This document shows, piece after piece, positions 5,459 to 60,410 of a DNA stretch of 64,000 nt. Source of the DNA: Atopsyche davidsoni (Eukaryota; Arthropoda; Insecta; Trichoptera; Hydrobiosidae). The stretch covers positions 8,326,501-8,390,500 of the forward strand of contig JAILWY010000005.1 of NCBI GenBank assembly GCA_022113835.1. The letters are read 5' to 3'. Every line of letters starts with the position of its first letter. Positions within the stretch are counted from its first letter, which is position 1. Position numbers and translations under genes: made by a program. The notes under the pieces were generated by a model. The model was not told the origin of the DNA and made no database searches. It was given only the letters and a program-made list of their open reading frames with translations.

Positions 5459-5589
5459 TATTAATTTTAGATTAATGTTAATCAGGATGCGTATTTATTT
5501 ACCCATGCAGGTATTAGTATGTTTATGTGATTAAGCATATTTTTTCACACATTGAAAACAATTAAAGAAAACTCTCAGAAAATATCATC

Positions 5590-5667
5590 GTGACTTGTGA
5601 GGGATTCGAACCCACATCCCCAAGCTTTCATGGCCGGTGCATTTATCCAACTATGCTAACGAGCCAC
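5590..5667 (-). other. tRNA-like module with A and B boxes (left arm of E1)
   Basis: Inverted duplicate of 6228-6305, identical by eye. The two pol III promoter-like modules point toward the outside of the element in opposite directions. Transcription from either would read through a palindrome arm end. Confidence 0.7.
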
Positions 5668-6227
5668 TGCAATTTAGTGAGAATTTTTAATAATCATATT
5701 CTACATATGAACTAATATGCTCGGGCTAATCAATATTTAATGATTTGCAAACACTGGACTTTTTAATTAAAGTAACAAGTGAAGCATTTTTATATCCAAA
5801 GCTGGTTATTATTATTTTTAAAATCTATTGATGTTTAGCCGAGACGCGCACCATTCAATTATATTAATTTTAGATTAATGTTAATCAGGATGCGTATTTA
5901 TTTACCCATGCAGGTATTAGTATGTTTATGTGATTAAGCATATTTTTTCACACATTGAAAACAATTAAAGAAAACTCTCACTGAATATGCATATCGCGTG
6001 GTAATATGTAATAAATATGCAATAATGGTGTGGTGGTTCAATGGTGCGCGTCTCGGCTAAACATCAATAGATTTTAAAAATAATAATAACCAGCTTTGGA
6101 TATAAAAATGCTTCACTTGTTACTTTAATTAAAAAGTCCAGTGTTTGCAAATCATTAAATATTGATTAGCCCGAGCATATTAGTTCATATGTAGAATATG
6201 ATTATTAAAAATTCTCACTAAATTGCA

Positions 6228-6305
6228 GTGGCTCGTTAGCATAGTTGGATAAATGCACCGGCCATGAAAGCTTGGGGATGTGGGTTCGAATCCCTCACAA
6301 GTCAC
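6228..6305 (+). other. tRNA-like module with A and B boxes (right arm of E1)
   Basis: A 78-nt tRNA-like segment. The A box tagcatagttgg (6237-6248) and the B box ggttcgaatcc (6283-6293) both fit the RNA polymerase III internal promoter consensus. The ends gtggctc and aagtcac can form an acceptor-like stem with six of seven positions pairing, counting one G-T wobble. The anticodon stem is poor, so this is a SINE-type tRNA relic rather than a working tRNA gene. It probably drives transcription of the element. An inverted copy lies in the other arm at 5590-5667. Confidence 0.7.
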
Positions 6306-6373
6306 GATGATATTTTCTGAGAGTTTTCTTTAATTGTTTTCAATGTGTGAAAAAATATGCTTAATCACATAAA

Positions 6374-6385
6374 TATTTGAGATTA
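6374..6385. repeat. Right 12-bp target-site duplication of E1
   Basis: Exact copy of 5447-5458. The second palindrome arm ends immediately before it. Confidence 0.85.
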
Positions 6386-7845
6386 CTTAATTTTTCATAT
6401 TGCCAATTGTATTCTAAATAAACATTTAAGTAAAAGTGAATTTGACTATGTCTCATATTTTTTAGATATTGCAAATTAAGATGATACAAGGTATTGTATT
6501 TATAAATTATTAAGATTTTATTTGAAAAAATATATTTAATACAAACACATATATATAAGTCTCAAATATAATTTTTCTGGAAATATTACTCAATGGATAT
6601 AATAAATCTAAGCGTATATATTACCTAAGTTCCGTTTGACGTTTTTCTGTTCTTCTAGTAAAAATATACACATTATAATATTCTTTAGTGAGTAGAATGG
6701 TAGAATATTTCATTCGCGTAATATTATGATATACCAAGTGGACGCTACAGCCTCATAATATGTGCTAACTCGGAGGTTTTATCTTTGATTTCAAGCAATC
6801 CTTTTAGGCGTAAACAAACAGAGGGCATCTCCAATATCTTCCTCAAACACGGAAAAGATTGTCAATAAAATCTGAAGTAGCTCACTGAGCTGAAAACACA
6901 ACTTAAACCGTGCTAACGTATATATAATGTTCTTCTGTAAATAACTTAAGGATGATATAAGATATCGGCATATTACTTCATATCGCTGATATTGAAAACA
7001 GATATGAAGGAAGGAAAAACATGTCAAACTTTACTTCTACTGTAAAGATCACGTTAGAATATTTTTATATTAAAATACATTTGTAAATTTAAAAAATTGT
7101 GGTTTAATTTTAGTAAACGAGGAATTTTAGTAAACTGCAGTATTTTTTTCAGACATAATAGATATTTTTGTCAATCATCTAATTCAAAAACAATTCGTTG
7201 ATATTACGGGATTTTTATAAAAAAAATATGCACTGCTCAGTTTTAACTTTGTTTATAACTAGTGCTGTAAATAAAATGTTAATTTAAGTAATGAAAAATG
7301 GGTGGAAGTTTTTTTTAATATTCCGATGAATAATATATACTTTTCATGACTGTCGTATATTTTTAGTTTAATCCACATATATCGAAAAGAGTAGCATCAT
7401 ATAATAATTTATTTTGAATGTGAAATCACAATTACTGATACTCTTTTTTAAGGTAAACTTTACATAACCCTGTGATAGATGTTGTCATGCGAAAATTCTT
7501 ATTCGGTCTGATTTGCCGATGGTTATAGGTTATTTGATCTTGTAACACAAACTGAGAAAATACGGAAGAGAATAATATTTTTTATCGCCACTTCCGGGAG
7601 CAGGAAAGCCTCCGCGACAATCAGCCCAAGGCCACGCGCCACAGTGTAGTGTGGAGTCCCCATTAATCATCACAGCCCGGCGTGGCAGCGCCATAAAAAG
7701 TAGGCCGCTGAATTCGAGGAACAGGACCCATACAAAAACAGCGCAACCCGAGACGCGGCTGCGAAGTCCGGCTTCCATTAAAGTGATATAGTTTCCTCGG
7801 TTTACGCGGAAACATGAGAGCGTTCTTTGTTTTATATTTTTTGTG

Positions 7846-8005
7846 CTGCAAAAATTAAAAGGCAAAACCGTAAAAATGGATATTTTTTTCAAATGCATGC
7901 TAGTTTTTCTGCGAAAATTAAATGGCGAAATCATGGAAATGTATAACCCTTAAAATTCATGCAAAATTTAAAAATAAAATCACAAAAATGTAAAACCCTG
8001 TGAAT
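7846..8005 (+). repeat. Degenerate A-rich tandem repeat, three units
   Basis: Three related segments begin near 7848, 7911 and 7961. Each has gcaaaaattaaa-like sequence, then an aaaatcac or aaaccg-like stretch and aaatgta. Spacing is about 63 and 50 bases. In A-rich DNA this similarity could partly be chance. Confidence 0.35.
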
Positions 8006-9247
8006 GGGTGTTCTTTTATGCCAAACATTTTTTTTAGAATGCATATAATTAAAACACTGGAAAAAGACTTTTGAAAATTGGTTTTACTTATAAATCAGAA
8101 AATTTATATATTTTTTAGATAAATCATGGTATTAATTACAATGAAAAGCATTATTTTAGTAATTTATATAACAGGTTTATAGAGAATATGGCGCTGCATT
8201 ATTAATCTGGTAAATCATTAGGATTGAGTCGTATGCTATCTCATCTTCATCAATTCTAAATACTCCATCTATTAAGTATAATAACCGAACCTTTAGCAGT
8301 GATGATACCCTCAACCCTTAGCGCCCACCCTTGTAGGCTGTAGGTCCCGAACTAGAGCCTCGAAGACTCTTTAGCGAACTTCGCCATAGGCCGGGGCCCA
8401 GGGGAGGGGCGGATTAATACGTCGGCGGGTGTTACGGGGGATGAATGTGCTAAATGTGCTAGCTGTAAGGGTAATATGGAATGCGAAAGGCTTTTTTGTG
8501 CAAATAAATGTGAGTAAAGAACACATAGTTTCATTTGAAAAATTGCCATTATCGATTACCTCCAACTCGAGATGGTTAAGAAGTTGTACTCACTTAATAA
8601 CAATAAAAAGACATAATTTGTTTGTGTCTAAATAAAATATTTTTAGCCGCTAGTAAATATAAAAATGATAAGTATTCAAAATAAATATTGTTAAAGAAAT
8701 ACTCCATGTTTAAGCATAAATTCGAAAGATCAAAAGAGTTTCTTAAGACTAATTTTGTTGAAATGTGAAATAACTCACAATCAATTGTATTAATATTTTT
8801 TTTGCTACGCGGCTATTCAAAGTTTTTTTTAAATGAATATAATAAAAAAATATTTTTTAAGGTACTAAGCTAAAGCTGAAAATAATTTTTTATAAAAAAA
8901 ATAACACAAACACTTGCAACCTAAAAAATTGTAAATTACGGTAAAATTTATCTCTACTAAATAATTCAGTTTTACCATTTCTATGACATTTATAAGGATC
9001 ATAGCGCATAATAAATCTTAATACACAACGTCACATTTTCCCAATTACGCCACTCTCTCAAGGCAGAACAACACATTTTTCTCAGCCAGACGACAAAACT
9101 GCTGCTGATACAGACTGACAAAAAGTACGGCGAGCTTCCTTGCAAAACAAACGGCAAGAAAGAAGGAGCTCCGCAAAACCTGACAAATAGTCGGGTGCCC
9201 GAGGCTGCAGTCAGCACTCGTGAGGCTCTAGAGCTGCCTACACATGC

Positions 9248-9590
9248 TGCAAAACAACCGACAACCAAACCTTTAGTTATCCGATGGTGTCATCTTAAAA
9301 TAATTATAAAACACCCAGTATAAGTGGACGCTATTGGCTAATTACCGATTGGTTGTTGATTGTTTTGAACCGTGTGTAGGTAGCATTATGAAAGGTAACT
9401 GTGACGCGAAAAACAAAGTACCTGCAATACAACTGATAACCAAATGTGAATTCACCAATAGTACCCTCTTCAAAAACACCCTTAAATAAGAAGACTGTTG
9501 GTAAATTAAAGTAAGATTGTCGGTTGTGTTGCAGGGTGTATAGGAAACATTGTACAGGGTAACCGAGACACGAAACAGACTGATCCGTGT
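9248..9590 (+). repeat. Two diverged tandem units of about 170 bp with internal inverted repeats
   Basis: Two units, starting near 9248 and 9422, share the same order of blocks: ctgcaaaacaaccgacaacca-like start, aaaacaccc, ggttgttgattgttttg-like segment, a gtgtgtagg-like stretch and a ggtaactgtgacgcgaaa-like end. The first and third blocks of each unit are imperfect reverse complements, so each unit can fold back on itself. The copies are clearly diverged. This may be an old palindromic mobile element duplicated in tandem. Confidence 0.5.
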
Positions 9591-12500
9591 GTATTATAGA
9601 TCCGTATATAATTTAATGAAATATTTTGTCAACCAATAACAAGCATATTTCAATTCGTTTGATAAATTGATATTTATTATTTTTGATTTTGTTTTTCTTT
9701 CTATTACCAAAAATTATGTTCAGTTAAATAATATCCGTTGTTTGTAAAAAATAAAATCTTAGTTCATTTTTCATAGAAAGAAAATTAATTACTGAATTTT
9801 CAATGTCATTCTTATTTAAGTTTGAAAATAATTAAGAAAATAATAAAAAAGTATTTGAACTACCTTTTATTATGTGAAAGTAGGTATTTGTCAAAAATAT
9901 TTCATTGTAAATACTAACATGCTTTTATTGTTTTTTCGCTGCTGGAAAATCAAGAAAAAGCGCGAAGAAAAAGGGAATTATTCATGTTTTTTGGTGTAAA
10001 CATAATTTAAAATAACAGTCAGTAAATGACTTACTTCCTTGTAAGAAGGCTTTCAGATGAAGCACGCAGCCCCTAGGAAGTTATATTGTGCTAAGGGTAA
10101 TTAATTATGTGTCTTGGCACCCTTCCGGTTCCTGGGAGAAACTCTTTTGTTTCGCCCAGTGGCTTCTGAACCACGAGGCGCGATAACCGAACACCCACGG
10201 CTTAGGACCCATTTCTAAGTATTTCCACAAAGCTCGTCGCTCACAAATAAATACAAGGATTCATCTTAGAAAGATACACTCCTAAAGTTTAGTTGTGTAA
10301 CTCAGAGTACATAACGTATAATGCTTCGTGTAACTATATGATGATGAATGGTCCCTTATGTTATACATACAAATTCACCACAAACTCTGTGTAAAGTTTA
10401 AAATGCAAGTAGCTTCAGTATATACAACATAAAACTTTAATAAAATATAACGTCTTCAGGAGATAGAATGAAGTTTTTTTTATAAATCATAAATAGTTTC
10501 TTACATTTTGATATAATTTAACAACATTTATGCTAATTTTTGATGATAAGCAAATAATTGTGTTATCATGTTAATCAATAAATTGACCCCGTCTAATATA
10601 AAATAAAATAAAATGAAAAATTGTTAAAAACAAGAGGTTTCCATTGGTAGTATCAAGTCCAGATATTTTTATTCGATTTAAATAGGTAGTTTAAACGCTC
10701 TGCTATAATCGAGTTGTGTTTAATTTTAATAAAACTAAAGCAAAATTAATACGATATTTATTTTTTGAAATCTGTTGTCATTAGTATTTTTAAAAATAAA
10801 AGCAGTGTTGTTTTCCGATAAAGCGATAAGATGAAAATCATATTCAATGCATGGGCTCTACAAAAGACTTTTTGATCAACTTTAAAATCTTCTTCATCCT
10901 CTGTATTCGTAAAACTCAAACTCAATTCTCAATAAAGTATGCTAATTATTTTTATTCGTTTATAAATATTCTCATTTATTAACGCATATTCACCAATTTA
11001 ATATTTTTCATTGATTATTTAGACATATAACTTTATTTTTTGTTTTGGGTGTATACACAAATTATTGCAATGCTATTATACTTTTAATTCGTTAAAAAAT
11101 ATTATTCAATAATTAATAAAAAAAATGATATAATTTTTCATACATTACAAATAAAATGCCTGATTTGAGTTAAGGTGTTAATGGAAAAATGCTTTTAAAA
11201 ACAAATTATTAATTTTTAGTAAATAAATAATGCATTAAATATTTAAAGTGAATGATTACATTCTGATATGTTTTTTAATCAAGTCAACAAAACTGATGAC
11301 ATTAAATCTTATTCAAACGCAAAATATTTTTTTATTTTACTTTTATTTTTTTATTAAAACAAAGCAATTTGATATTCCACCTTGCGATCCGTATTTCTTG
11401 TCACGCCCGCCGAGTTATCTTTATGTTTGTTTTTTTTTTACCGACCTGCCGGGAGAGAACACCCCTGATTAAAGAGACGGAAGGTCGGTTACTGGTTCGA
11501 CTGAACCGGTTCAGGTGCCTCCCAGCCGGTTCTTTGTCTGATAAAACTGCCGGGGCGGAGATAATTGTTGGCATTATCCGCCTTTCTGTGGCTGAAGTAG
11601 ACTTTGAGGCGTTATTATTACAGAGACAATAAGATTTTTCAAATGATATTCGCAAAATATTTTTTTTTGTTACGTGAATTAATTTATTACTGTGTTATTG
11701 ATATTAAAAATACTTTATGATGAATTTTCTTTACAATCTCAAATCAAAATAAAACATGTGCAATATATTTTTATAAATAAAACATTTTGATGGTTATTAC
11801 TGTGCAGTCATAACCGCCATACATTATTTTATTTGTACTACGAATACGAATACGAACGAATAAAACTTTACTGCGTATTCCAGATAAATGGTAATAGTTA
11901 AATCTATTTGGTTAAATTGACATTTCGATTATTGCAGGTAATAATAATGTTCAATCCAATGATTGTCATAATGTTTCCTAAAACCAAATGGCAAGGACCT
12001 AACTACAAAGGTAGATGCCTGAGAACTCTTATTACCACCATTACGGGGATCATTTCACCTGATGGTCTAATGATGATTACATCATTAAAGGCGTATAATT
12101 ATATAATAATGAATCAGACGAACGATGATTTTTTGGAATTAAACATTTTGAATTACAATAAGTCGTAATCTCAAAAACTGAAATTCATAGAATACAAGAT
12201 TATTTTTGGCAAAGCACATTAAAAACTCTACCAAATTTTGTCCTTAATGATCATGAAATAATAAGATCTTTTGTATTTGTCTTCATTTTTCTTTTTATTT
12301 TATATCTTGTTCCTCACATTTGTACGATTTTGATTTCGAATATGCGGATGCAATTCAACCCATTTTATAAATTTGACAAGTAGAATATAAGTGATTTCAT
12401 CCTTTGTTATATAGTTTAACCAGACTTATCTCAAAATGAAAAAAAAGAAAATAATTAGTATAACCAATAATATAATAAAAAACTCTATAATTAAATTTAG

Positions 12501-12925
12501 AGTAACTTGATCCATGGAATATTCATTTTTATAATATACCGAAAAATCAATGTTACATAATTATAAATAATTTTTCCATATGGTGATTGCAATGCGAGTA
12601 CTTTATTTTCATTACCCTCAAATAAATGTGGGGGATTTAAAGCTTCACTGTGACAACAAATACATGCCATGAAGAATGAGAAGACTTACGAATATCTTGA
12701 TACCGTAAAGAGAATCCAATGGCTTAAGAAGCTTTTGTGCTGGGATTTCAGCTAGATTTATGAAAATCCGTTAGGATTTAATATTATACATAGTTGAATT
12801 ACGATTAATATTATTGGATCTTATTGCAATTTAAATATTAAGTCTTAAACAACAAAGATGTGATAGTGCCCTCGAAGTACACATTTTAAATTTAAAGCAA
12901 AGCAAATGAAAAATGTGTTTACCAT

Positions 12926-12937
12926 GATCTTATAATG
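12926..12937. repeat. Left 12-bp target-site duplication of E2
   Basis: The sequence gatcttataatg matches 13315-13326 exactly; flanking bases differ. Confidence 0.8.
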
Positions 12938-13314
12938 TATTTTTGATTTATTGTGAAGACCGTCTCACAGGAAGTACGATTTTGCCTATACAGGTTTTAT
13001 TGATTGATAATGATTAAGTACACTTTTTCAAATATTGAAAATTGATTAAAGAAACTCTTAAAAAAATATCATCGTGATTTGTGTGGGATTTGAACCCACA
13101 TCCCCAAGCTTACATGGCCGGTGCATTACCATTATTCATTATGCCATTGTACATTTTTTCAAATATTGATTCGATGGCATAATGAATAATGGTAATGCAC
13201 GGCCACGTAAGCTTGGGGATGTGGGTTCGAATCCCACACAAATCACGATGATATTTTTTTAAGAGTTTCTTTAATCAATTTTCAATATTTGAAAAAATGT
13301 ACTTAATCATTATC
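12938..13314 (+). mobile_element. Foldback tRNA-like element E2, 377 bp
   Basis: Same family and design as E1. An exact 12-bp duplication, gatcttataatg, lies at 12926-12937 and 13315-13326. The element has a 68-bp leader (12938-13005), a left arm (13006-13147), a 26-bp loop and a right arm (13174-13314) flush with the right duplication. The arms differ at several positions, so this copy is older or less homogenised than E1. The leader shares the cctatacaggt block with E1 (cccatgcaggt there). The right arm keeps an exact B box (13224-13234) and a tRNA-like T arm, but the A box region is altered. The element ends 90 bases before the splice acceptor of the receptor's start exon. Confidence 0.8.
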
Positions 13315-13326
13315 GATCTTATAATG
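13315..13326. repeat. Right 12-bp target-site duplication of E2
   Basis: Exact copy of 12926-12937, directly after the right palindrome arm. Confidence 0.8.
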
Positions 13327-13404
13327 ATTGAGTAAAATATTATACAATGCATATTTTATTGGTTTGATTGACCTCTGATTCACTGAAGGTTATTTTGGTT
13401 TCAG

Positions 13405-13529
13405 GATGCCCGGATACAACAGGCCCGTGCTCATAGCCCGCGGCCCCCCTGCAAGGGAGATGGCCGCGCCGCCCGCCTAGTGTGCCGGGACTGCGGATCG
13501 AGTCCCGCCCGGGCCTTCTGGACCCCGCC
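13405..13529 (+). promoter_or_regulatory. 5' untranslated leader of the kainate receptor start exon
   Basis: G+C-rich, CpG-rich leader that stands out from the A+T-rich DNA around it. It is preceded by a plausible 3' splice site (a T-rich run ending in ttggtttcag at 13395-13404). This suggests that a further non-coding exon and the promoter lie upstream, possibly outside the window. An in-frame stop (TAG, 13434-13436) precedes the start codon, so coding cannot begin further upstream in this exon. If the splice site is not used, this patch could instead be the promoter-proximal start of the transcript. The sequence alone does not decide. Confidence 0.6.
13406..13480 (+). promoter_or_regulatory. 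Upstream ORF, 24 codons, in the leader
   Basis: An ATG lies one base after the inferred exon start and opens a 24-codon frame ending in TAG at 13478-13480, 49 bases before the receptor ATG. It is in a different frame from the receptor and does not overlap it. The peptide begins MPGYNRPV and is rich in Pro, Ala and Arg. Upstream ORFs of this kind usually lower translation of the main frame. Here the first ATG sits in a weaker context than the main ATG. It would be the first start codon in the mRNA unless upstream exons add others. The role is inferred. Confidence 0.5.
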
Positions 13530-15865: not shown

Positions 15866-15884
15866 AAAAAAAAAAAAAAAAAAA
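15866..15884. repeat. A homopolymer, 19 bp
   Basis: Uninterrupted A run directly after the possible foldback-family relic. Confidence 0.9.
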
Positions 15885-23573: not shown

Positions 23574-23586
23574 ATATCAATATTCA
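23574..23586. repeat. Candidate 13-bp target-site duplication, left, PLE copy 1
   Basis: The sequence atatcaatattca recurs at 24716-24728. It is A+T-rich, so a chance match is possible. Confidence 0.55.
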
Positions 23587-23630
23587 TATTTTGAATAAAA
23601 ATACTTGAGTGATTTTCCACATTTTTGTTT
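23586..23630. repeat. Left 45-bp inverted repeat of PLE copy 1
   Basis: Reverse complement of 24624-24668 with no mismatch seen. It contains the block tacttgagtgattttccaca, which also marks the 3' end of the second copy at 63684. Confidence 0.8.
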
Positions 23631-23636
23631 TTATTA

Positions 23637-23675
23637 GTGACCGGTTTCGCCAACCTTTCACGTTGGCATTATCAA
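23637..23675 (-). ncRNA. Hammerhead-ribozyme-like motif in PLE 3' region, copy 1
   Basis: On the - strand the order is ttgataat, a 6-bp stem (gccaac with gttggc), gaaa, then ccggtc and ac. This follows the hammerhead layout of CUGANGA core, stem II, GAAA, a minimal stem III and a cleavage triplet ending in GUC. Hammerhead motifs are known from Penelope-like element terminal regions. Compared with the active consensus, core positions 3 and 8 are U and A instead of C and G, one extra base precedes stem II, and stem I is weak. Activity is therefore doubtful. Confidence 0.5.
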
Positions 23676-23956
23676 ACAGAGTGAGATTCTATATAATACT
23701 AAGCAATTAGGTAAACAATTGTTAGAGGGAGAGGTTGTTGTTAGAAAGAGAGAGAATGATTGTCAGGTGGTAAGGGCTAATGTGATTTTAATGTACCTGA
23801 CAAGTGGAGGATTCTATATAATTGCAAATTTTTGTGTTAATGGGGTAATTATCTAAAGTAGTGACTTTGAGGTGTAGCAGCAGTTATTCTGAGTTGGGGT
23901 TTGTCCTGTAGTGTGTTTATCTGTAAATAATAGGTTTATGCACAGTAAATGTTTTT

Positions 23957-24649
23957 TTAAAGATGTGATTTAGCAATAGGGAATAATAATGGAGACTTAT
24001 TGAAAATAACCTGGTCGTTAAGCAGGTGCTCCGGTGCGTTATCTTTTATGCGATTGATCTCTAAAATCTCTTGGCGATCGAGTTTTGTGCCTTTATTGTT
24101 AATATGCAAAATTTTGAGGTTGGAGTTCTGGTTAAAGTCGTGCTTATTATCCGAGAGGTGGAGGCCGAAGGTAGATGTCTCATCTCCCTTTTTCCATCCT
24201 CTTATGTGGTCTTTGGTCCTTGTGTTGAAGGATCTACCTGTTTGGCCAATGTAAGTGGCGTCGCAGGAATCGCAGTTGAGTTTATAAATGCCACTGTTAC
24301 TGAATTTATCATTCTTATCTTTATTATTGATAAGAATTTTTGCTAGGGACATATTATTGTAATATGAGACCCTGCATGATCTAGAAAGGAGTTTACCGTA
24401 TTTTTCGCAAGTCTCGCTGAAGAATGGGATTTTAACCCATTTTTTATTTATATTATTTCTATCGCTTTTGGACAATTTAGAGATCATATCGACAAAAATA
24501 GTTTTTTGTTTTTTCGATAACATTTTAAGAATGGTTGAAGGGTTATATCCGTTGTTAGTGGCTAATTTCAGTATGATTTTAAGTTCCGTATTGAAGTTAT
24601 TTTCATCTAAGGGGGCCATACATAAACAAAAATGTGGAAAATCACTCAA
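23957..24649 (-). pseudogene. PLE protein C-terminal fragment with GIY-YIG endonuclease domain
   Basis: Open frame of 230 codons; the first codon is TTG with a stop just upstream, and the first ATG is codon 11 (24617-24619). In order it holds a post-reverse-transcriptase linker (about residues 12-110), a CDSC cysteine pair (126, 129), and the GIY-YIG nuclease with GIY at 120-122, YIGQTGR at 133-139, further basic residues R144 and H148, and an acidic residue in the EILEI segment (194-198) where the family's catalytic glutamate is expected. In complete elements this nuclease nicks the target DNA for target-primed reverse transcription. Here the reverse transcriptase is missing, so the copy cannot move alone. 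The domain itself has no stop or frameshift, which suggests recent insertion. Confidence 0.85.
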
Positions 24650-24668
24650 GTATTTTTATTCAAAATAT
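24624..24668. repeat. Right 45-bp inverted repeat of PLE copy 1
   Basis: Inverted copy of 23586-23630, overlapping the first codons of the remaining open frame, so those first residues come from terminal-repeat sequence rather than from the ancestral protein. Confidence 0.8.
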
Positions 24669-24715
24669 TAAAATGGAATTCCACCAAGTACTCTCTGTCA
24701 AAAATATTGAATTTC

Positions 24716-24728
24716 ATATCAATATTCA
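24716..24728. repeat. Candidate 13-bp target-site duplication, right, PLE copy 1
   Basis: Exact copy of 23574-23586. The 47 bases between it and the inverted repeat (24669-24715) would then belong to the element. Confidence 0.55.
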
Positions 24729-27700: not shown

Positions 27701-30700
27701 GCCTGTAACTCAAACACCTTCTGTGGGGATGGTTTGCACTTCAGTACCTATCGCATCTTTGCTTCAATTGAAACTTCTAATGAATGGTAGCACCTAAAGC
27801 TGACGATATCTGCATACATGTGCTGTTATTTTTATTCATAATGTATGTAAAACGTTCAACATTAAAGACAATATTTTCACAATATTTTTTTATTTTCCTT
27901 ACCAGCTATTTTTTGCCAATACTTTTTTTTTTTTAGTTTTCAACGACATCCGTCTTCGGTAAAACATTTTCCCACATTGCCGTTTCCGGGCTCAAATTCA
28001 AGTGTAACAATATATTTATTTTAATTCTGTACAAATAATAACTGTTATCCAGTATTTTTTCTCTGTATTTTAAAATATTTTCAGTTTAGGTTTGTAAAAA
28101 TATAATTGCTATTAAACAGTAGTTGGATACAAAAATATTTCAAATCCTTTTTTTGACTAACTTATATATAATAATAAAGTAATTCGTTAATTAATTACCA
28201 ACAAATTCATTGAAACATAAATTAAATTATGGAAATTTATTTCCATAATCATTAAGAACACAGATTTTTGGAGATTTATAATTAATAATTCAGACTACTT
28301 TCAGTAAAAAATTTTATTTGATCAAGTTTAATGTTAAAAAGCTCCTTAACTTAAACCTTAAAGCTTAGTGGTATACCATATACATATTTTATTCAGTGGT
28401 GTTTTAAGTATTAGCACCCTTAAAAATAAAATATTTACCTATTATGAGATTTGCTTGCAAGAAGTAGACAAATAAAGATAGGGAGTCAAATATTCTCTTA
28501 ACATGCCTTAAAGATTGCATGCTTTTTAATCTAATATGTATAAGACACTAGTCTTAAAATCTTAAATTCTCTTTTACATCACAAGACATAGTAATTTAAG
28601 ACTTTTAGTAATATGTAGGGGTTAACAAAATTCACTGTTATATAATGACTTATTGTGAATTTTTTGCGAATTTTTTTTTAATTGATTGAGTTTTATATAT
28701 TTTTTTCCTGGGGAATTTTGTATTTCATAAATGTACCTTATTGTAGTGTAACGATAATTTAACATTTATATTATGAGTTTTTTTTATTGAAAATATGTTT
28801 GTGTATTTAAGTAGTAATTCTTTGTAGGCGTTCAAAGGTAATTTTAGTTATATTATAAGATTTAAGTAGTAGTGATTACTATATTATAATGTAGACAGAT
28901 TATTAAAGCTCTATCAAATTATTTTTATATATCAACAAGTAAGAATTCAGTTCATACAAAAAATGTAGACGAAAATATTCGTGGTTCAAAATATACCAAA
29001 ACTTAAGTTTCAAAATAAATATACAGTTTTCCTGAAAGAATAGCGATAACAAACAAGTCAGCTGTCAACTTGATAAATTATTTCCTTCTCAACGTCCGGG
29101 CGTCTGACAAGACAAGGACAGTGAAGGGAATGAAGGCCATGTGTAGTTGTGTACAGACGGCGTGTGGCAAGACTACCTAAGGACCTGAGTTAAAACTATT
29201 TATCATTTAATATTCATTCACACCCAAAAAAAAAAAAAATTTTTTACAATAATTAATTTAATTACTCATCATTTTCGATACCAATAGTAACCACATTTTA
29301 CAATTCTGAATTCCACCAAGTATTTTCTGTCAATAATATTATATTATAATTCTGATCACAATATCTATAAATACATTTACATAGATATTCCAAGTCATTT
29401 ATTCAAAACTGTTTATACGATTTCAATTATTTACATAAATGATATATTCTCATTCCGCAGCAATATTATTTATTGTTGTAAGATACACAGCGTTGCATGA
29501 TTGTGGCATTAATATTGGAAGATTCCATGGGAGATACTGCTCTTGCCCGCCTTACGATTCCCTCGGGACGAATTCAATTTTGCCAACAAACATTTACAAA
29601 CACACCGTCAGGAGATAGGTGAGCGCATGAAATTACACTGATACTAATGTTGTAATGCTACGCAGTTATGGATACAAACATATCATTCGTTCATGTTTAA
29701 CCATTACAATTTGATATTATTAATAGAAGAGCTTAAAAACCTTTTATAAATGGTATTGATTTAAAAAAATAAGTGATCAGTGAGAGATTCTATCGAGGCT
29801 ATTTTTTATACTTTAACGAAATAAACATAATCTAAAAAGTAACATCTTTATATACCGCAATCAAGAAATAAAAATTGTTGTCGCTGATTTAATTGTGTTT
29901 ATTATATACATACATATTAGTAATTTGACCATGTAAGTAAATGCAGTTTTCTTATAAATGTACAAGTTTCAAATTTTTGGAAAACACATTTACAATTGTA
30001 AAACTGAAATAAAATACTTCTTGGCATTTGTGTTTTATACTGATATTGAAATTACTATAATTAATTAGTATAGTTTGCAAGGTTGGTCGTTGGATATAGT
30101 ACATTGTAGAAAAATATTTTTGCTTAATATTTAAATCTGAAATAAAATCAATCTGAAAAATCTCGCCAAAGAGAAAGCCTGAAAGATTTTTTTGCTTGCT
30201 TATGAAACTACACGCAATGAATGAAAGAAAAATTACTTTAATATTACTATTTTAATGAATAAATAATAACAGCACTTTTCGCTGTTATCACTGATTTTAT
30301 ATAATATATTCCGATGTTTTTTCTGTTCTCAAATATTGTCGATATTTTACAAAAAAACAACTAAGCAGGTACATTTAAACACTTTATTTTCATCTAAAAA
30401 TTCCTGTTTTATTTGGTTGGGTGAAGCTTTTTTATACAATTTATTATTTATTGTAAATGTTTAACTGAAGTGGTTATAACATGATATATTGATTTTTGTA
30501 TATATAATATTATCTTTATTAAGTTATTGGGTACATGAGATAGAGTACAACAGCTTCTCTGCCAAAATTCTTGTAAGACGTACCGACGTAGTTCTGAGAA
30601 CAAATACTTCATCCTTGGAATGGAGCTGTAAGTTCCTTGGGTGGCTGTAATATGATATCTCCACTAGTGTTGTCTCGGATACTAATTTCGCCTCGCTTTC

Positions 30701-32583
30701 ACTTACGCTTTCTATATTCAGTTCCATAACCAAACCTGACACATCTATATAGGAAGCTCTCACGTAGTTATATAATATGTAATCACTTATATTTACAATT
30801 GCAACATATTGATAAATCAAATATACATTGTGACTTAAATACTTAAATATTTTCAAATCAGACTCCAAAACTTATATTATATATCTCATGTCATATTGAA
30901 TATGCTACGTCTAAAATATAAAAAAAATACTCATAACTCGTTAACTATAAAATTAAAACGACAAGTAGGTATTTTAACAATGATATTATAAAGTTTTATC
31001 TTTTCTACTGATATATTGAGAGGCAGGCATGTTTCAGTCTCTCGGCATCTAAACACAGATCAACTGTAGATAAAAAGTGTCATTACGTGATATCCTTGCG
31101 ACAAAAAACAGACCAAATGACGTAAAATAGGCGGAGTTAAAAAAAAACTTGGACCTTCGTCTTGTAATGGATCGATATCAGTCTAGTATGTTTTATTTTT
31201 CCGTTCAATTTTTGAGTTGGGTTTTTAAAACTACCCATATTTACCATTCATCATTTAAATATCACACTTAGTAACATAACTCAATTTCAAAAGCATATAT
31301 TATATAATATGAGCAGAAAAATCAAAGGTTGATAGTGCTCTTATTTGTTTTAAAAATAACCACTTTTGTTAAAGTGTGTTAAATGAAATCGGTTGAAAAT
31401 AAACATTTTAATCAAAATGCGGCGTAACGCGGAATGGCACTTTACATTTCTAACATATTTGAAAAGGTAAATACCTAGCATAATGTTTAATGGAGACATC
31501 GACCCGTATTTTTTCGGGGTTGGAAAAAGAAAATAATCCCCGTCACGTGCTCGGGTCACCCTCAATGGGGGCGGAAGGGTATTTTTTGTTCCCGGGCCTG
31601 GCGTAATACGCGGGAGGCGCTCGTGGTTCACATATTTTGAATACTAATGAGGGAGATCTATTCACTTTTGACGTTTACATTGTATTTAACAAACAGGATC
31701 CGCAACTAAGAACAATAATTATTCTTCTTCACAGCAATTTTCCGCTGCTACGTTACATAAAAGCGCATAAAATTGAACAATGTGCTACCTTGCAAAAATT
31801 TGAAAGGATTTTTTTTATATGAATTGCGCATTTTTATAAGGATGGAGTTGAAGCAAAGTTTTTTAAAACATGAATGTCCAATGTTTATTTTATTTGAAGG
31901 ATGTGTGTTTTTGATTTTCTACGTTTACGATCCTTGACTTATGTTTTAAATATACTTGTATAAAATGTATTAAATGTCGCAAATCTTATAAGAATACTTT
32001 AATTATAAATAAATATATTTATAATTTAAAAGGTATTATATATATATATCATATTATATATAAACAGAACTCCAGTGTCTAGAATTTTAAACTGATTTTA
32101 TCCTACTGTTTTATATCAACCTTTGAATTGACAACAAAATTGTCTTGTCAAATGACAAGAAAATTATCAATTATGGTCAAGATAGACATGTATTTTTAGT
32201 ATTATAAATTCATTTTATTCTCAAAAATAAGGATAATTACAAAAAACACGGATAAACTCTGTTTTAAACATTCTTCACATTACATTTATTTAATGACGGT
32301 AGATTGGGTTAAATTATATCGTTATTCGTTGCGTGCAATTTCATTATTCGATTAGTGTTGTTTATTTAAGATTTATAGGTAAGGTTAGATTGAATTCAAT
32401 TTAAAATATTGTATGTACTTTGAAAATCTTTATAAATACGTAATATTTGCAAATAAAAAAATATTTATTTTTACCTTTTTTTTATTAAACTTGATATTTT
32501 ATATTTGTATCAGCTGAAATATTTTACACGTGGTTGAATATTTGAAATTTGAATTATTTTATCATGGTGTGGTTTTTTTTCAG
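24729..32583 (+). other. Receptor intron 1, second part
   Basis: No gene found; ends in a T run and cag. G+C-richer patches lie near 24890-25090, 26880-27060, 27640-27800, 29090-29180, 29510-29630 and 31410-31630. The last contains a CACGTG E-box. The 33-bp repeat at 29308 is listed separately. Confidence 0.7.
29308..29340. repeat. 33-bp block shared with the PLE 5' side
   Basis: Matches 24676-24708 at 30 of 33 positions, beginning gaattccaccaagta. It may be a short remnant of the same retroelement's leading edge, or an older repeat into which copy 1 inserted. The surrounding sequence gives no longer match. Confidence 0.4.
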
Positions 32584-32739
32584 GAGGGTTGTTTCACCCC
32601 GCGGACGACAAACAGGAAGTGGCCTTCCGCTATGCCGTTGAGCGCATCAACTCCGACAGGACCATCCTGCCGCGCTCCAAGCTCCTGGCGCAGATCGAGA
32701 AGATTTCCCCGCAGGACAGCTTCCACGCTTCCAAGAGAG
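32584..32739 (+). CDS. Grik2: Kainate-type glutamate receptor, coding exon 2 (start of ATD)
   Basis: Encodes residues 27-78, with split codons at both ends (phase 1 in, phase 1 out). A T-run plus cag (32581-32583) gives the acceptor and gtacgt (32740) the donor. The peptide begins GGLFHPADDK and continues with EVAFRYAVERIN, RTILPRSKL, QIEKISP and QDSFHASKR. These are the hallmark first strand and helix of the bilobed amino-terminal domain of kainate and AMPA receptors (the LIVBP-like fold), which drives subunit assembly outside the cell. The AFR.AV..IN, ILP and DSF.ASK motifs are the most diagnostic. No N-x-S/T glycosylation site is visible in this exon: the N in RINSDRT is not in a sequon, although related receptors often have N-R-T there. 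Base composition is far more G+C-rich than the introns around it, as expected for a conserved coding exon. Confidence 0.95.
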
Positions 32740-35700
32740 GTACGTCATTTATACGCTGTGTTTTATTTAAAACTAGAAATGTCGCCCGTCACAGAATGAC
32801 GTTTTCGGAGGCATTTTGAGTTATTAATGCTGTGATTAATAATTTCTAACGCGATTTCGATAAAAAAAATAAAATTGGTACTAGTGTCAAGCTGACATAA
32901 ACTGAAAATTTCTAAGAAGGATCAAAATTTGTTTTTTTTGTAAATGTTCTAAATTTGAAATTCTCGCGGTTAACAATAAAATCCTATAATTAGTACATAT
33001 TGAAACTCGCTAAAGCATATTTTATAGTTTTATCTATTGTCTTGAAATTCGGCACATAGCTGCGGAAAAATTTACTAAGCTTACATGCATAAAATCAGCG
33101 TTGTATCTTTTAAGATATTCTATAGAAAACCAAAAAATGAAACATACACACACACAATGGATATTATTATAGTAGATTGATAAATATTTATATTTATAAA
33201 TTTAAAAAGTGCGACATCAATATTAACCCAAATAGTGTCAAATTCTTATGTACGGTTATATATCCGATCTAATAGACTTTTTTTTAAAATTTGTTACATA
33301 AACGTTATATATTATTTGAAAATAGGCTTAACCTTGTTTATAAGCTATCGTTATTTTGCTCTTTGTGCGTCCTACATATACGCATCATTTTCATACAAAT
33401 AACGTAGTTAGTGGCATTGCGGTATGTTACATAAGATATTGTATGTAGACTAATTAGATAGAGCGTTGACATACAGTTTGTATTATGAAATGAATTTGAA
33501 TAGAAACATTACTATTGTCTTGTATGGTAAAAGCGTATTCCGATTCGTTTCTCATTATTTAGTTTCAATTGTAAAAGCTCCGCTGGTTCGAGCTTATTCA
33601 CAATACATTACTGTACTAGTAGATAATTTTTGAAACCAGATATTCAAATTCTCCTGTAGCCAATTTGTCATCCATACAAATCTACTGGGCAGAAAAAAGG
33701 CTTTGTATTAACTTCCTGGTACAATGAAAGCCTCCCTTGCATCCCGTACGGCCATAAAGAAAGTATGGAATAATTGGCAAAGCTTCCATTTAAACTTTCC
33801 AAATTCGGATACGGAATTGAGAATTCGGAAAGTAGGAATAATGTTGTGTATACAAAGAGATCAGACAGATTTTATTATACCCAGTGAACGAGCGTCGATC
33901 GATCTGCCTACGGATAGTTTTTATTCGGTACAGTCACAAGGCTAACTTTTTTTACGCTCTTATGGAAGATTACTTTTCTTGCCTTTCGAATTTGTTAATG
34001 CTTAATCGATTCTTAAGATCATTACTTATTTTCATCGCTTAAATTTATTCACGAATCCATTATTATTTGCATGAACCCAAAAGACCTTGGAGACCTACCT
34101 TGCAGCAGACGAAGAACAACTGGATATAGCGTCTTTAAGGTCCATAATATATCTTGATTTCGTATCTTCAAATATGAAAAACTTCCTATCTTAAATAGGC
34201 ATTCACCATAATGTTCAAAATTAATTAACACTTCAAAAAATGCTAAGTTTTCAACAACGTTTATAAAACAATGGTGAACGTGACGCTTTGACGATGCCGT
34301 AATAGGTGGGCCTCTATTACTTGAAAGTTTAAACTCAAAGTAGGGTAGTTTTCATAAAGGTACGTACCGGAAATACGCATTAGCCAGGAACGAGTTGTGA
34401 GCCTGCGCAGTCACGTTCCAGCCCCGGGGACTCGAAATATCCTGCGGCCCCTTTATCGCATGAGGGATGAACGAAATCTTCAGGACCTCCAAATCTCAAG
34501 ACTTTAGAAGGATATACTGAATGTGCGTAAACCAGAAGTACCTTTAAGTTTTACTTAGACGTGCGTGATTATGGCATAGGCAGGTGTTTTGAATTAAATA
34601 GTTTGCCTTGAGCTATAACAAAGGTAAATTTTATCTATAAATTATTACGGATGAAAAGGTTAAAGTAATTATTTTCAAATTATTTTAATAAGTCAAAATA
34701 ATGTTTATATTATTTTAAACTGTTAAATAACTAAAAGCGTAGCACACGTTTGCTTATCAATTAAATAATAAGTTATAATTTAAATTAACAATTGAAAAAG
34801 AAAGTTACCTTGGCTTTTGAAATATATTTTTTATCCACTGTTTGACAACAAAACGTCAACGATGATATTACATGACGTGCTAAATCTCTGGAAGACAGAG
34901 GGCATATTGGGATACTAAATCTTTTTATCGGATCTATCATTGCTTTTGTTTCAAAGAGCTTTCGCCGTATATCTTGTTCCCTTCAGCTCTGCTTTGGTAT
35001 ACGTGCTTGTGCTTGGCAAGCACTGAATTATTGTTGACTCTGTATTTTTTCAGGCAGACAAATAATCAAAAATAAACTCAGACAAAAGCGATAAACGATA
35101 TTTACGGTTGAATTATTTAAAACCTATACATTTGACTAAAGCTTTGGATGGATTTTTTGTAGCAGTAAGCAGCGAGTGTTTTCATTTTAAAAATAATATA
35201 TTTATTTAACAAAAATATAAATACTTCAATTTATATCAAATGTTGTTAAATTATAAAAAAGGTAGCAACATGGAATAATAAATAATACATTTTCCAAAAC
35301 AACGCACCAATTTTTTTTATATTTTATCAGTGATTACTTATTATAAAAATCTTTATTTTTATTTTGAGAAATTCTTAAATATAACCGTGTTATTTAATAT
35401 CAAGAAACAGAAGCAAAGATAAGAAAGAGTAGTCTTAATTTATGGACTAAATTTAAAACGAAAATTCGATTCAATTTACTTATTTTCCGTACACAGTGTA
35501 TTGTATTTACGGAACTCGAATTTCACCGGCTCAATCGAATGGAAGCATCGTCGATTGCAAATCGGTTATTCAAGTGATACCAAAATTACACTCAATTGAA
35601 CTCCAACTTACAGGCTATACATCAGCACCAACGCCCCTCGCAAAGAAACCTTTGTATTTTTAAACAACGTCGCTCTTCACTGGGCACCGCAACATAAAAA

Positions 35701-52200: not shown

Positions 52201-53199
52201 AATTTTATGAAAATTTCTAACAATTTTAATATTTATAATGAAATGTCTAACAATGTATCTCAAATTAACCATTTAATTTCAAAAATAGGTATTAAAAGCT
52301 TTCTTATCAAATATATTATTTACATAATTTTAGCCTTTATATGATAGTTACCCGAAAATTCTAAATCTTATCAAAATTATGGTAATAATATTAATAAAAA
52401 TTTATAAGGTACATAAGGTAAACAGGTTTTAAAAAACCTGAGCCAAGCGCCTAGTAATTTATTCAACGAGTTATTCAATCAAAATTCGCCATATCAAAGC
52501 ATACTTTTCTTGTACGTATAGAGTAATACAAGGGGTAATTTAGACACGAAATGGCCCAAGTCTTGTCATAAAACAGTCGTGGAGCCCTCAGCAGTTAGAC
52601 CTATAATAAAGTTATTCTTTTTAAGCTCTACTTATTTTTTTACCAAGCAAAGAGACGTAAACTTTATAATTTCGTTTTTAATAAATCCTCTCTAACCTCC
52701 ACCTTCTGTTGAAATTACACAACCGTTCTAAAAGTAGCTGCTTAGTTTAATTTTAAATAATAAAAATTATGAAATTTTAAAATAAGTACTATTAAAAAAT
52801 AATACTCTTATGATTAAAAATATTGCTAAGTCTTGGGGCTTTATTAAAATGGTGACATATTGATATAATTATACCCTCTCAATAACAGATACAAATTTAT
52901 TATTTTATTCACATCATGCATTCATGGTGCATTACTTTAAATCATTCAAAATAATACAAAAAGGCGAGACTGAAATATATGCCCAGCAGGTTCTCGCTTC
53001 CCCACAAAAATGAAAACAACATTCGATTCCCCGCGCGGAATTACCTTACCGGCCTCGCCTCTATGAGTTTTAATTTAAAAGCCTTATTCTAGAACAAAGC
53101 CTGCTATATATTCCGGCCACAACCTTCCGAGCAAACTGTAAGCTATGAACACCGGCCAGTTTTGTAGACCTCCTTTAGAGTAGAAATCTTCTTTTTTTC

Positions 53200-53240
53200 A
53201 TTCCGACACTCCTTTATTCAGAATATAAGAGTGTCGGAAT
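53200..53240. repeat. Perfect 12-bp inverted repeat, hairpin-forming
   Basis: attccgacactc at 53200-53211 and its exact reverse complement at 53229-53240, separated by 17 bases. No known family was recognised. Confidence 0.7.
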
Positions 53241-56200: not shown

Positions 56201-59200
56201 ACTTAGAAGCCAGTTATGATCACATGCAATATTTTGGGTTATACTACAATATTTATTGCAGACATGATTTTGGTGTACTTAAAAATAATTCAATCCATGC
56301 TGCTAGATTTTGCCAACCAATCTACAATGACTTCTAAGAAATTATTACTATACGCTTTTGAAACCCTAAGTTACTACACTTGCAAACCAATTTAATCGAA
56401 AATGGCAGAGTTTGCTTAAAGTGGCTTAAACCATTGGTCGGTATAATACAATTTAATTACGCTTGGCTTTGCTTCGATATAATATTAATACATTACATAA
56501 TATGTTGTGTAGAACAAGCACTTAACAATTCTGTATAATGAAATCAAAACTCTATTGTACACTGGATCCATATAACATAGATTAAGTTGACTATTCACAG
56601 TTTAATAGCGTCTGTCAATGTGTTAATGGTGTTCAATTATTAATACGTGTTGAGTTTATACTGTTACGCAAAGAATTAAATCTTCAATTCATAAAATTTT
56701 GAAGCTTGTTTTTAATATTAAATAGTGAAACGAAATAATTTAAATCATAGTGGTACATCTCAAGTGTCCCGTAGAGTGTTTAAGACTTTTAAGATTCTAC
56801 AAAAAAAATTTTTTTTTATAACTGTTTTCTATCGTTTTTACTATATATTAAAATAACCTTTCTTATTTTTTTATATCACCAAACTTCTTAAAACTCCACA
56901 CAAGGAAACAATGTATTAAAATCACTTTGTCTATAGCAATATTTCATATCATACAAGTCGACCAGTTGCAAACCTTTTTTCAGAAAAAATCTAAGTCTTT
57001 AAAAAAAAATTATTTTGCTACAAAGTCAATGAAAAAGTTTCAGTTTTGACTAAACGTGGCTTCCAACAAAAGTAAATAAAATACTTAGTTTTTTAAAAAA
57101 TATCAATTGTAGGTTTTACAAATCGAAGATTCATATATACTATCAAAATCTTATACAAATCCAATTTGAAACATTTTTTAAATTATCATTCATATATTGA
57201 TTTTTTTTTTATGTACATAATATTGAAAGGATTGTTTATTTAACCATGCGTCAAAGTATCGACCGTAACTTACGCAAGGGTAAAGCTACGTGTACACATT
57301 ACACAGTAGAATTGGCTGGTTCACCATAGTATTTCTCTCAATACAAACTATTTCCTCGGAGCCATCGGTGGTAACATTTGAATGAACCCTTTGAATATTT
57401 GCACTTGCAAAGTTTTCCAATTTAGGATGCCGGCAACATTGTATATACGCAGTATATAAGGTATGCAGATAAATAGTCCCGAATGTGATTTTAGCCTTTA
57501 TGGTTGTAATTGTGATATATTATTATAATTTATAGACGCCAATCAATAAAAATACACATGTCTTTAGAACGCATGTATAGTGTAGCTCTATAAATAATTG
57601 ACGTGAAAATCTTAAAATATATTAAAGTTGTATTCAAATTAAATGGAGAAAAGTTCATTGAAAATAAAACGAATATTTTATAGAAAACACTTCATCTATA
57701 TATACAATTTTTTTTTTTAAGTAGTTTAGATTGTTTTATATTATTAAGACAAAATAAGTTTACTGGCAATGTTGTAAAGTTATTTATAATTAATTTTATA
57801 AATAGCGTGTGTCTGTTTCTGCTGTCCTACACATGCAATGTTTATTATGCACTCAACTATCGCTTGCATTATTACATTTCGTATCTCGACCTAATTTGAA
57901 AACAACCGTACGTACAATTTTCATACCGCACAGTGCAGGGCCGTGATTCGTATTTAATTTAATTTGTACATGGCCTCTATGTGTGTGCAACAGATGGTAT
58001 TATTAAATTATATGAAAATTACACGCAATCTTTGCATGTGTCTGTTGCAGAAATATATTCTGTGTAATGCTTGAGATAATTCTGGTATGATCATCGCATT
58101 TTTTATAAAATAATTTCTCAAAAATACATATTTCTTGTAGTCTATGATTCGATTGAAAACTGCTAACAAATAATTCATATCTTAAATAAGTTGAGTATTT
58201 TAATTAATTGAAAATGATTAAAATAAATGATATTAATTAAATCAATTAAATTATTTTCTGCCAAGAAGAGTTTTATTCCATACGCACTCTTTTTCAACAG
58301 CTCATCATTTTACTTTGCAAACCAACAAGTCATCTAACTCATCAAACAAAACCTAAAAACAAATGGTTTATGAAAATAAAAATAATAAAACGGTGTAAAT
58401 TAAAATTGAAGAAAGATGAACTTTAAATTTGAAGTAAATTTCGATATACTTATTCGAGATGGTTGTCTTGTTATTTTTTAAATAATTATGCTGTAAGAAA
58501 TCGGTTTGTTTTTTTTAATATTATTTTGTAATTTTTTGATGTTCCATCTGATATATTATACTTCATGCATTATCATACAAATAAGTTGATACAGGCAGTG
58601 TTCCATATGACTATGGTGCAGGCAGCGTGAAGTTTGCAACAGAAGTAATGCAGTCTCATGCTTGGCAGACCGCAATAAACTCTATTATCAAACTCGTGTG
58701 AATAAATATCAACGAAATCACAGGCCTATGGAGGAATTACAGACCACAACGCATACAGAAATATGCCAATGTGCCTATATTTGTACAACACGCCTAATAT
58801 GCTCACCGCTGTCTATCACATAATTAATAAATTTAGTGTATCTTATTAAATTATCTAGTAAACTTACGCGAAATAATGTTATTCAAAGACATCGTAATAA
58901 AATACCCTTACTTGTCGATTGAGTGGTCCAAACATTAATTGCTTGGTTTTTGTGTTGTATTTTATTTTTAATAAAAATCCTAATTTCTTAAAAATTATTC
59001 AGTTATAAATGGTTCTTATTGTGTTTAAGAACAAATTCGATAAAGCAATTAAGAAAATATGAAAAATAACATTTGAAAAAAAAGGATTTCAAACGCCGTG
59101 GTAATTTTTATAATGAAAGCTTTTTTTCTTGGTTTTTGCAGAGTGGAATGAAATGAAACGTAAAACTAATAACATTTAAAATAAAAAATGGAATAAAATA

Positions 59201-59685
59201 AATATACTTATCTAATTATACTGCAGGAGTAACGTTTTACCTGGCCGGGTTTTCACTTAACTGGCAAATTAATTAGCAAAACGCATTCCCATTCTAGAAT
59301 AGGTTCTACTGAATTTCTCCGGGGACTTCTTGGCTACAGTTTGCACAAAAGTGCAGTTAAAACTAAAGTTTGTTCATTTCCTCTAAGAATGGAGCTTCCG
59401 CAGACAGTTAAGGCTCTGTTGACAAGCGAGTGCCGGCGATAAGATGGCTTCATTTACAACCTGCAATATAAAGTTTTAAGAGAATTATTGTTCTTTGACG
59501 CCAACTTCAATTATTTAGATTGTAAAAAAAAGTTACTTAAAGTCTTTAATTTATATAAACATGCAAAAAAATTGTAAGACGTATTTTTATTGGGAATATG
59601 TAACTTTTCAAAATATAACTTTTGACATATTGAATTTTTAAGTAATTTTTTTTAATAACGCAATCGATTTTTTCTTTTTTTACAG

Positions 59686-59870
59686 TTTGCCACCTCTTGC
59701 GAAGTGGAGTAGCCGCCATTTTTGGCCCTCAAAGTGCCCATGCAGCCAGCCATGTTCAATCTATCTGTGACACCATGGAGATGCCTCATCTGGAGACCAG
59801 GTGGGACTACCGCTTAAGAAGAGAGAGCTGCTTGGTGAACCTGTACCCGCACCCAACTACCCTCAGCAAG
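59686..59870 (+). CDS. Grik2: Kainate-type glutamate receptor, coding exon 3 (ATD continued)
   Basis: Encodes residues 79-140. The acceptor is a long pyrimidine tract plus acag (to 59685) and the donor is gtaagg at 59871. The exon enters at phase 1 and leaves at phase 0, ending in the residues TTLSK. Visible motifs are VCHLLRSGVAAIFGPQS, SHVQSICDT, MPHLETRWDYR and LVNLYPHP. GVAAIFGP, VQSIC and the PH.ETRW segment are classic for the upper lobe of kainate receptor amino-terminal domains. Cys80, just after the junction, is in the place of the first cysteine of the conserved ATD disulfide; its partner would be encoded by a later exon outside the window. No further exon was seen between 59871 and 64000, so the gene continues to the right. 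A complete subunit is about 850-950 residues, so roughly 15% of it is encoded here. Confidence 0.95.
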
Positions 59871-60264
59871 GTAAGGGATTTTTTTCATAGGTTTTGGCAA
59901 CCATTGATTTAAGCTGCTTTAAATTTTTGATACTACGACGTTTAGATAGTCTTGCTAGGATTATTTTCAGTGTTTTCAGTAGCTCAACACCCAAGAAACA
60001 AAATCAATTCGTAATATAACCCAACAATCATATTTTTCCATGAATATAAGAAGCGATCGGAAAGATTTGTTTAATAATATAAATATTAACGAACAAGGCA
60101 AATTGACAACACAGGAAATTGGCTTTTGTTATACTTTTAAAATATTTTTATCCTTAAGACTAAGAACGATTTTAATTTTAACGGCGGTTTTTTTTAATAC
60201 ATTCACGGTTGTTACATCAGTGTCTATAAAAAGTTATTATTGTCAGTGTCTATAAAAGATAAAT
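59871..60264 (+). other. Receptor intron 3, start
   Basis: Begins with gtaagg. Nothing recognised before the small foldback element E3. Confidence 0.7.
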
Positions 60265-60276
60265 GATATTAAGATT
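60265..60276. repeat. Left 12-bp target-site duplication of E3
   Basis: The sequence gatattaagatt matches 60411-60422; the flanking bases differ on both sides. Confidence 0.75.
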
Positions 60277-60410
60277 ATTACTAATATGATTAGGCACATT
60301 AGTTCATATATAGAAGATGATTTAAAGAAACTCTCATATTAGTAATAATATAATGAACCCGTAATGGGTAATAAATACGCATCTGATTGACCAATCCATA
60401 AATAGATATA
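60277..60410 (-). mobile_element. Miniature foldback element E3, 134 bp
   Basis: Third family member, in reverse orientation, flanked by an exact 12-bp duplication gatattaagatt at 60265-60276 and 60411-60422. Read on the - strand it has a 60-bp leader (60410 down to 60351) containing atcagatgcgtatttatta, close to E1's atcaggatgcgtatttattt. A 16-bp inverted-repeat arm (60335-60350) follows, then a 45-base loop and the matching arm (60274-60289), which ends in the duplication. The loop keeps the gaactaat and gagtttctttaa blocks found in E1. The tRNA-like module is missing, so this is an internally deleted derivative. Confidence 0.75.

Follow-up and report, generated by a model that had tools for sequence, protein, structure and literature searches.

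One-tailed insertions made of opposed arrays of a tRNA-bearing repeat in Atopsyche davidsoni: probable products of two-ended reverse transcription on a unit-length RNA

Three insertions with a tail outside one arm

We analysed a stretch of 64,000 nucleotides from Atopsyche davidsoni (Trichoptera; assembly GCA_022113835.1, contig JAILWY010000005.1, positions 8,326,501 to 8,390,500 of the forward strand), referred to here as the window, which contains three related insertions, E1, E2 and E3. Each is enclosed by an exact 12-bp direct repeat, tatttgagatta, gatcttataatg and gatattaagatt, respectively, and each consists of opposed arms with a short segment, the tail, standing outside one arm only. 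An earlier note on the window had described these differing duplications, the opposed arms and the one-sided "leader" (our tail), and all of them are borne out by the present analysis.

E1 occupies positions 5459-6373, with its target-site duplications at 5447..5458 and 6374..6385, and its arms (5519-5858 and 6037-6376) are 99% complementary. The tail (5459..5521, minus strand) is present at a single outer end and corresponds to positions 1-63 of a complete 403-nt unit at 5459..5861 (GC content, 31.5%), whose sense strand is the minus strand. While the arms of the arm-loop-arm design given in the earlier note stood, the loop did not turn out to be unique sequence: 5858-5988 repeats the leader and the start of the arm with 98% identity. 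This second copy, the first sign of a tandem unit, marks a second unit start within the tail arm (5862..5988, minus strand; second tail copy, 98%), which is 1.32 units long. The no-tail arm (6037..6373, plus strand; 0.84 unit) abuts the duplication at around unit position 64, and a 48-nt filler (5989..6036) lies at the junction of the opposed arms.

E2 (12938..13314, duplications at 12926..12937 and 13315..13326) comprises a tail (12938-13001), an arm (13002-13120), a loop and a no-tail arm (13200-13314), the arms being 97% complementary between 13002-13120 and 13200-13318. E3 (60277..60410, minus strand, duplications at 60265..60276 and 60411..60422) is a very short, two-ended insertion with 16-bp arms and the tail on the 60410 side. 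Since exact repeats of at least 12 bp between two 40-nt flanks were found at only 27 of 20,000 random paired places in the AT-rich window (GC, 29%), the three exact duplications are not due to chance. As to the common leaders claimed in the earlier note, the relationship was upheld for E1 and E3 (none of 2000 shuffles as good) and for E1 and E2 (8 of 2000) but not for E2 and E3 taken alone (509 of 2000, not significant). No stop-to-stop frame of at least 75 amino acids was found inside E1-E3, nor any coding for the telomerase-like reverse transcriptase (RT), usually with a GIY-YIG endonuclease, of Penelope-like elements (PLEs). In viral and prokaryotic collections, exact pattern scans gave no match, and the Rfam microRNA matches of E2 do not reach the gathering scores and appear to be artefacts of its hairpin.

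Both arms of E1 contain a tRNA-like domain, at 5591..5665 (minus strand) in the tail arm and at 6230..6304 (plus strand) in the no-tail arm, each matching Rfam RF00005 with 41.6 bits; ARAGORN called the former a tRNA-Ser(TGA) at 5590-5665. The domain ends about 67 nt ahead of the tail boundary. When folded as a circle, the E1 unit is predicted to form a long rod with the tRNA-like domain at one end (-84.8 kcal/mol, computed without a shuffle control). No known ribozyme was detected in the window at Rfam gathering scores, and a hammerhead in the PLE or E elements, tried as a candidate, had no Rfam match. E2 itself has no ARAGORN call, and tRNA-Thr(TGT) was called in 6 of 16 E2-like loci found elsewhere in the genome. 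Of the six such loci scanned with Rfam, five reached the gathering score for tRNA (L051 only just; best, 50.4 bits in L054), and L052 had no match.

E1-type insertions across the genome

The genome assembly (370.7 Mb in 80 contigs) was searched with E1, yielding at least 411 matches, with scores for the best candidates only. With the 403-nt unit as the query, every distinct place among the matches listed (34 stretches, two of them belonging to one locus, plus the window) gave 34 E1-type insertions, a sample in which short or old copies are under-represented. All 34 are head-to-head opposed arrays of the unit with one outer end at unit position 1 (tail), preceded at some loci by several letters from the end of the unit before it, and the other at positions 54-67, without tail (60-67 in 32 of the 34). 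Two-tail or zero-tail insertions were not seen in any of the 34. The arms measure 84-6757 nt on the tail side and 80-7167 nt on the no-tail side, that is, 0.2 to 17.8 units, and the two lengths are unrelated (correlation of logs, 0.02), with the no-tail arm exceeding the tail arm in 18 loci. Where the arms meet, they overlap by 2-12 nt in 12 loci, abut in 2, and are separated by up to 49 nt of filler in 20; in L024 the filler (1162-1188) is a run of 27 T's. At L019 there is a second stretch of 2.6 units in one orientation (6562-7597), excluded from the counts, with the layout of the minus arm of the nearby insertion, perhaps a local duplication.

Exact flank repeats of 11-16 bp bound 32 of the 34 insertions, measuring 11 bp in 1, 12 bp in 14, 13 bp in 5, 14 bp in 9, 15 bp in 2 and 16 bp in 1. 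In good part, the excess over 12 bp is made up of letters common to the element ends and the flank, and 12 bp fits 29 of the 32 sites, the exceptions being L009 (11 bp) and L012 and L019 (13-14 bp); L042 was retained despite a 14-nt overlap between its right-hand repeat copy and the aligned end. The earlier note had proposed a non-autonomous family in which one arm is inset and the duplication stays at or close to 12 bp. This is borne out at the other genomic copies examined, and the variable duplication lengths that the note had named as evidence to the contrary did not appear. The flank of L027, another E1-type insertion, resembles the tail of another E-like element, and an apparent 17-bp repeat there was discarded as spurious, another comparison giving only 6 bp. 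Around the cuts of 33 sites (L027 included), A occupies positions -2 and -1 in 21 each, and T occupies +14 in 21 and +15 in 18. This preference is weak (one-sided binomial probabilities of 0.007 and 0.08 against 0.41, uncorrected for the positions inspected).

Alignments to the 403-nt unit mostly show 99-100% identity, with L014-L016 at about 94-98%. Of the 164 internal joints between units, 162 pass precisely from position 403 to position 1, and the other two deviate by 2 nt. The 34 loci contain 141 full units, and at 16 unit positions there are alleles common to at least two loci. Excluding letters within 15 nt of alignment ends from the variant counts, and alignments below 93% identity from these, the mixed-cell and the joint counts, 43 of the 44 locus cells with such a variant have it in every unit, 38 with both arms sampled. 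In total, 1 of 508 cells was mixed, compared to 180.4 expected if units were independent draws, which indicates a single source sequence for the two arms of an insertion. Without the 15-nt filter there are 14 mixed cells: 10 at the edge of the no-tail side (positions 62-63), 3 next to junction ends (two in L036, one in the window), and 1 in a lone unit of L034. Among 26 private variants, 15 occur in all units and 10 in a single unit, the latter looking like later mutations.

In the E2-like group a no-tail end was located in 16 of 27 loci, 14 of which have a good flank repeat (10-15 bp, at most 1 mismatch); the count omits L047, which has no long tail-bearing copy, and L044 repeats L043 and L050 repeats L045. 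A longer E3-related copy in L064 has an exact 12-bp repeat. In L052, E2-type tail copies recur in tandem about every 317 nt (587-1661, reverse strand). The repeats include the target flank, and this period was thus ruled out as a second rolling array and read as a local tandem duplication.

Penelope-like elements in the window

A PLE fragment lies at 23587..24715 on the minus strand, between exact 13-bp duplications (23574-23586 and 24716-24728). It has opposed 54-nt arms and, beyond just one of them, a tail of about 46 nt, as in the E elements (no-tail arm, 23587-23630; tail-side arm, 24624-24669; tail, 24670-24715), so that the one-tail design with inverted terminal parts is found in all 34 E1-type loci and also in the resident PLE. 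An open frame of 232 amino acids (23960..24655, minus strand) encodes the C-terminal part of a PLE protein; Pfam gave no family for the fragment itself, and its best homologue carries RT (PF00078) and GIY-YIG (PF01541) domains. A tail-only PLE insertion of about 34 nt (29310..29343, minus strand), with a 12-bp duplication containing 1 mismatch at 29298 and 29344, apparently represents reverse transcription that halted almost at once. A second PLE copy (63667-64000; 84.7% identity over a 333-column alignment) is cut by the window end. Elsewhere, PLE copies have duplications of 13 bp with 1 mismatch (L060) and 12 bp with 2 mismatches (L024). A CAG..GTA block, alike by eye, had suggested a tail common to the E elements and the window PLE, and was rejected as not significant against shuffles.

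Also in the window are two frames with ANF_receptor matches (32553-32816 and 59646-59909), one of them below the curated cut-off. They resemble kainate-type glutamate receptor exons of an animal, and may belong to a single ionotropic glutamate receptor gene interrupted by a very long intron.

A purified PLE protein is described as cutting and extending both strands of an AT-rich target and as initiating internally, at two neighbouring sites that delimit the "tail" (PMC11167929). PLE loci are tandem, their mRNA being described as holding multiple copies, and the later steps to a finished PLE copy are still to be validated (PMC11167929). For the inverted repeats of PLEs, self-priming has been proposed (PMC3846280). 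The E elements and PLEs (PMC11167929, PMC3846280) are alike in their inverted terminal parts, in the optional tail at one end, and in having direct and inverted partial repeats, and the weak A/T preference at the E1-type cuts recalls the ATT preference in PMC11167929. PLE duplications, where present, measure 8-10 bp in Adineta, compared to 12-13 bp in the PLE copies bounded here. The E elements differ in having no protein found, in the 403-nt unit of E1, repeated for up to about 18 laps per arm, and in a tail unlike that of the resident PLE.

Two-ended priming and its alternatives

"Foldback element" is not the best reading of E1-E3. The E1-type copies are better understood as reverse-transcribed copies of a 403-nt unit with a tRNA-like domain, laid out as a pair of opposed tandem arrays whose lengths are unrelated, and E1-E3 are probably non-autonomous retroelements produced by two-ended priming at a 12-bp stagger, with repeated laps on one monomeric, most likely circular RNA. 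The template would be a monomeric RNA (403 nt in E1) that contains the tRNA-like domain and is most likely closed into a circle. A protein of the Penelope type would cut the two strands of the target at a distance of 12 bp, and the free 3' ends would each prime reverse transcription on the RNA, one starting at the tail's outer edge (unit position 1) and the other about 60 nt further in (around position 64). Each complementary DNA (cDNA) would run 0.2 to about 18 laps round the RNA until it stopped, whereupon the two cDNA ends would be joined via short overlaps or filler, fill-in of the 12-nt overhangs leaving the duplication. Since priming on both strands, with a separate start site for each, would yield one end with a tail and one without, PLE-type machinery is favoured as likely. 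A PLE protein may mobilise the E elements, whose architecture and duplications agree with this, though the tail of the one PLE family seen here does not match theirs significantly. The overhang geometry is likewise a proposal, and the same mechanism may be common to E2 and E3.

The alternative closest to this scheme keeps the two-ended priming and replaces the circle with linear multimeric transcripts of existing arrays, or with jumps between linear monomers. Arrays do exist as possible sources of multimeric RNA, as in the PLE mRNA described with multiple copies, and the few variants that are not uniform within a locus (L029, L012, L014) are in line with it, as would be the data as a whole if the parent array were perfectly uniform. 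Linear-multimer templates should nevertheless make mixed offspring common, and the single mixed cell among 508, where different templates would give 180.4, speaks for a unit-length template used repeatedly; repeated use of such a template within one molecule points to a circle. Template jumps usually leave variable joints, unlike the 162 of 164 exact ones observed. We regard linear templates as a minority prospect, distinctly less probable than a circular monomer. A single cDNA array snapping back and copying itself into a foldback would account for the head-to-head inverted repeats, and the centre of E2 is a near-perfect hairpin. A copied arm cannot outgrow its template, though, and simple hairpin self-priming is contradicted at the 18 of 34 loci where the no-tail arm is the longer; nor can the copying of a no-tail arm create a tail, and the arm lengths are uncorrelated. 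Self-priming may still act in some short copies, but as a general explanation it is very improbable, and the E1-family data argue against the proposal of PMC3846280 for this family.

Equally improbable is a tRNA-derived short interspersed nuclear element (SINE) mobilised with twin priming by a long interspersed nuclear element (LINE). The E elements share with such SINEs the tRNA-like domain, the dispersed copies, the lack of any coding capacity found, and duplications longer than 10 bp. SINEs have a single orientation and a LINE-type 3' tail, whereas the E1 family has opposed multi-unit arrays, two fixed start zones and a near-constant 12 bp, and no poly-A, A-rich or simple-repeat tail was found at the E1-type ends inspected. 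Least plausible of all, to the point of being hardly credible, is a foldback transposon of the cut-and-paste type or a satellite array dispersed through recombination. Long inverted repeats and tandem arrays would suit one or the other, but the outer ends differ in 34 of 34 loci, the arm lengths are uncorrelated, and locus-specific variants occur in both arms. End asymmetry, opposed arrays and duplications thus led to the rejection of the foldback, LINE-driven SINE, Helitron and satellite readings. A Helitron is expected to leave no target-site duplication, where 32 of 34 sites have exact repeats, and the outer edges of the E1-type insertions (position 1 against 54-67 in all 34) lack the matching inverted repeats of a miniature inverted-repeat transposable element (MITE) or foldback.

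Several observations weigh against two-ended copying of an RNA circle by PLE-type machinery. The circle is deduced from DNA, and Rfam detected no hammerhead or other known ribozyme, at E values up to 3, in a 909-nt stretch containing more than two units. Four-T runs a short way downstream of the tRNA-like domain, at positions 84, 95 and 108 from the tRNA start, may stop RNA polymerase III early, and count against a simple transcript of the whole unit by this polymerase. Uniformity is broken by one shared variant mixed in L029, a private variant in 2 of 5 units of L012, and a partial 4-nt insertion in L014 (insertions lie outside the variant counts). The two sites left out of the 32 with duplications, L018 (within an (AT)n run) and L027, are ambiguous. 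Eleven of the 27 E2-like loci yielded no end of the no-tail kind, and no clear E2 array emerged, a second tail copy being hinted at only in L066 and perhaps L070. The E tails do not match that of the window PLE (shuffles as good: E1, 1992; E2, 689; E3, 1545 of 2000), an argument against that PLE as their direct partner, and among the PLE copies a duplication is absent at L051 and L014 and indistinct at L013, L023 and L061.

Metazoan non-LTR retrozymes (LTR, long terminal repeat; Cervera and de la Pena 2020) are the other relevant comparison. These are small gene-less tandem units of 150-450 bp with a GC content below 50%, each with a type I hammerhead ribozyme, that are expressed as circles and for which PLEs have been suggested as helpers (PMC7229834, PMC7761336). 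The gene-less 403-nt unit of E1, its tandem arrays, its GC content of 31.5% and its duplications of more than 4 bp are similar, and a circular RNA template with a PLE helper is common to retrozymes and to what we propose for E1. The hammerhead defines retrozymes, whereas the E1 unit has no detectable one and contains a tRNA-like domain instead; that this domain does the cutting or closing job of the hammerhead is speculative. Head-to-head arrays, present in the E1 family, are not mentioned in the passages of PMC7229834 that were examined, and the word "inverted" occurs 0 times. It is conceivable, though we put it forward tentatively and at somewhat less than even chances, that the E elements represent a new class, in which an RNA circle that bears a tRNA-like domain but no recognisable ribozyme is reverse-transcribed in rolling-circle fashion, with priming at two fixed sites from either end of a single staggered cut. 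The "pseudo-LTRs" of PLEs, direct as well as inverted, would then be footprints of the same two-ended process round a circle. Among the open-licence titles and abstract openings listed, no paper was found on circle elements that bear a tRNA and lack a ribozyme, or on PLE-type arrays in opposed orientation. The same titles and abstract openings named no SINE, MITE or Helitron family for the elements, in keeping with the "undescribed" of the earlier note, which remains unproven because repeat libraries such as Repbase lie outside this coverage.

The insertion route of PLEs is an open problem, for which dozens of simple-repeat insertions serve as a record. The E1-type copies reveal the start sites, the number of laps, the junctions and the identity of the template, making the mechanism directly testable. 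These insertions argue for independent priming at two ends and for a single monomeric template. They point, too, to the possibility that small RNA circles lacking any recognisable self-cleaving ribozyme can spread through animal genomes. If true, the copying of a circle from both cut ends would explain the puzzling architecture of one class of retrotransposons.

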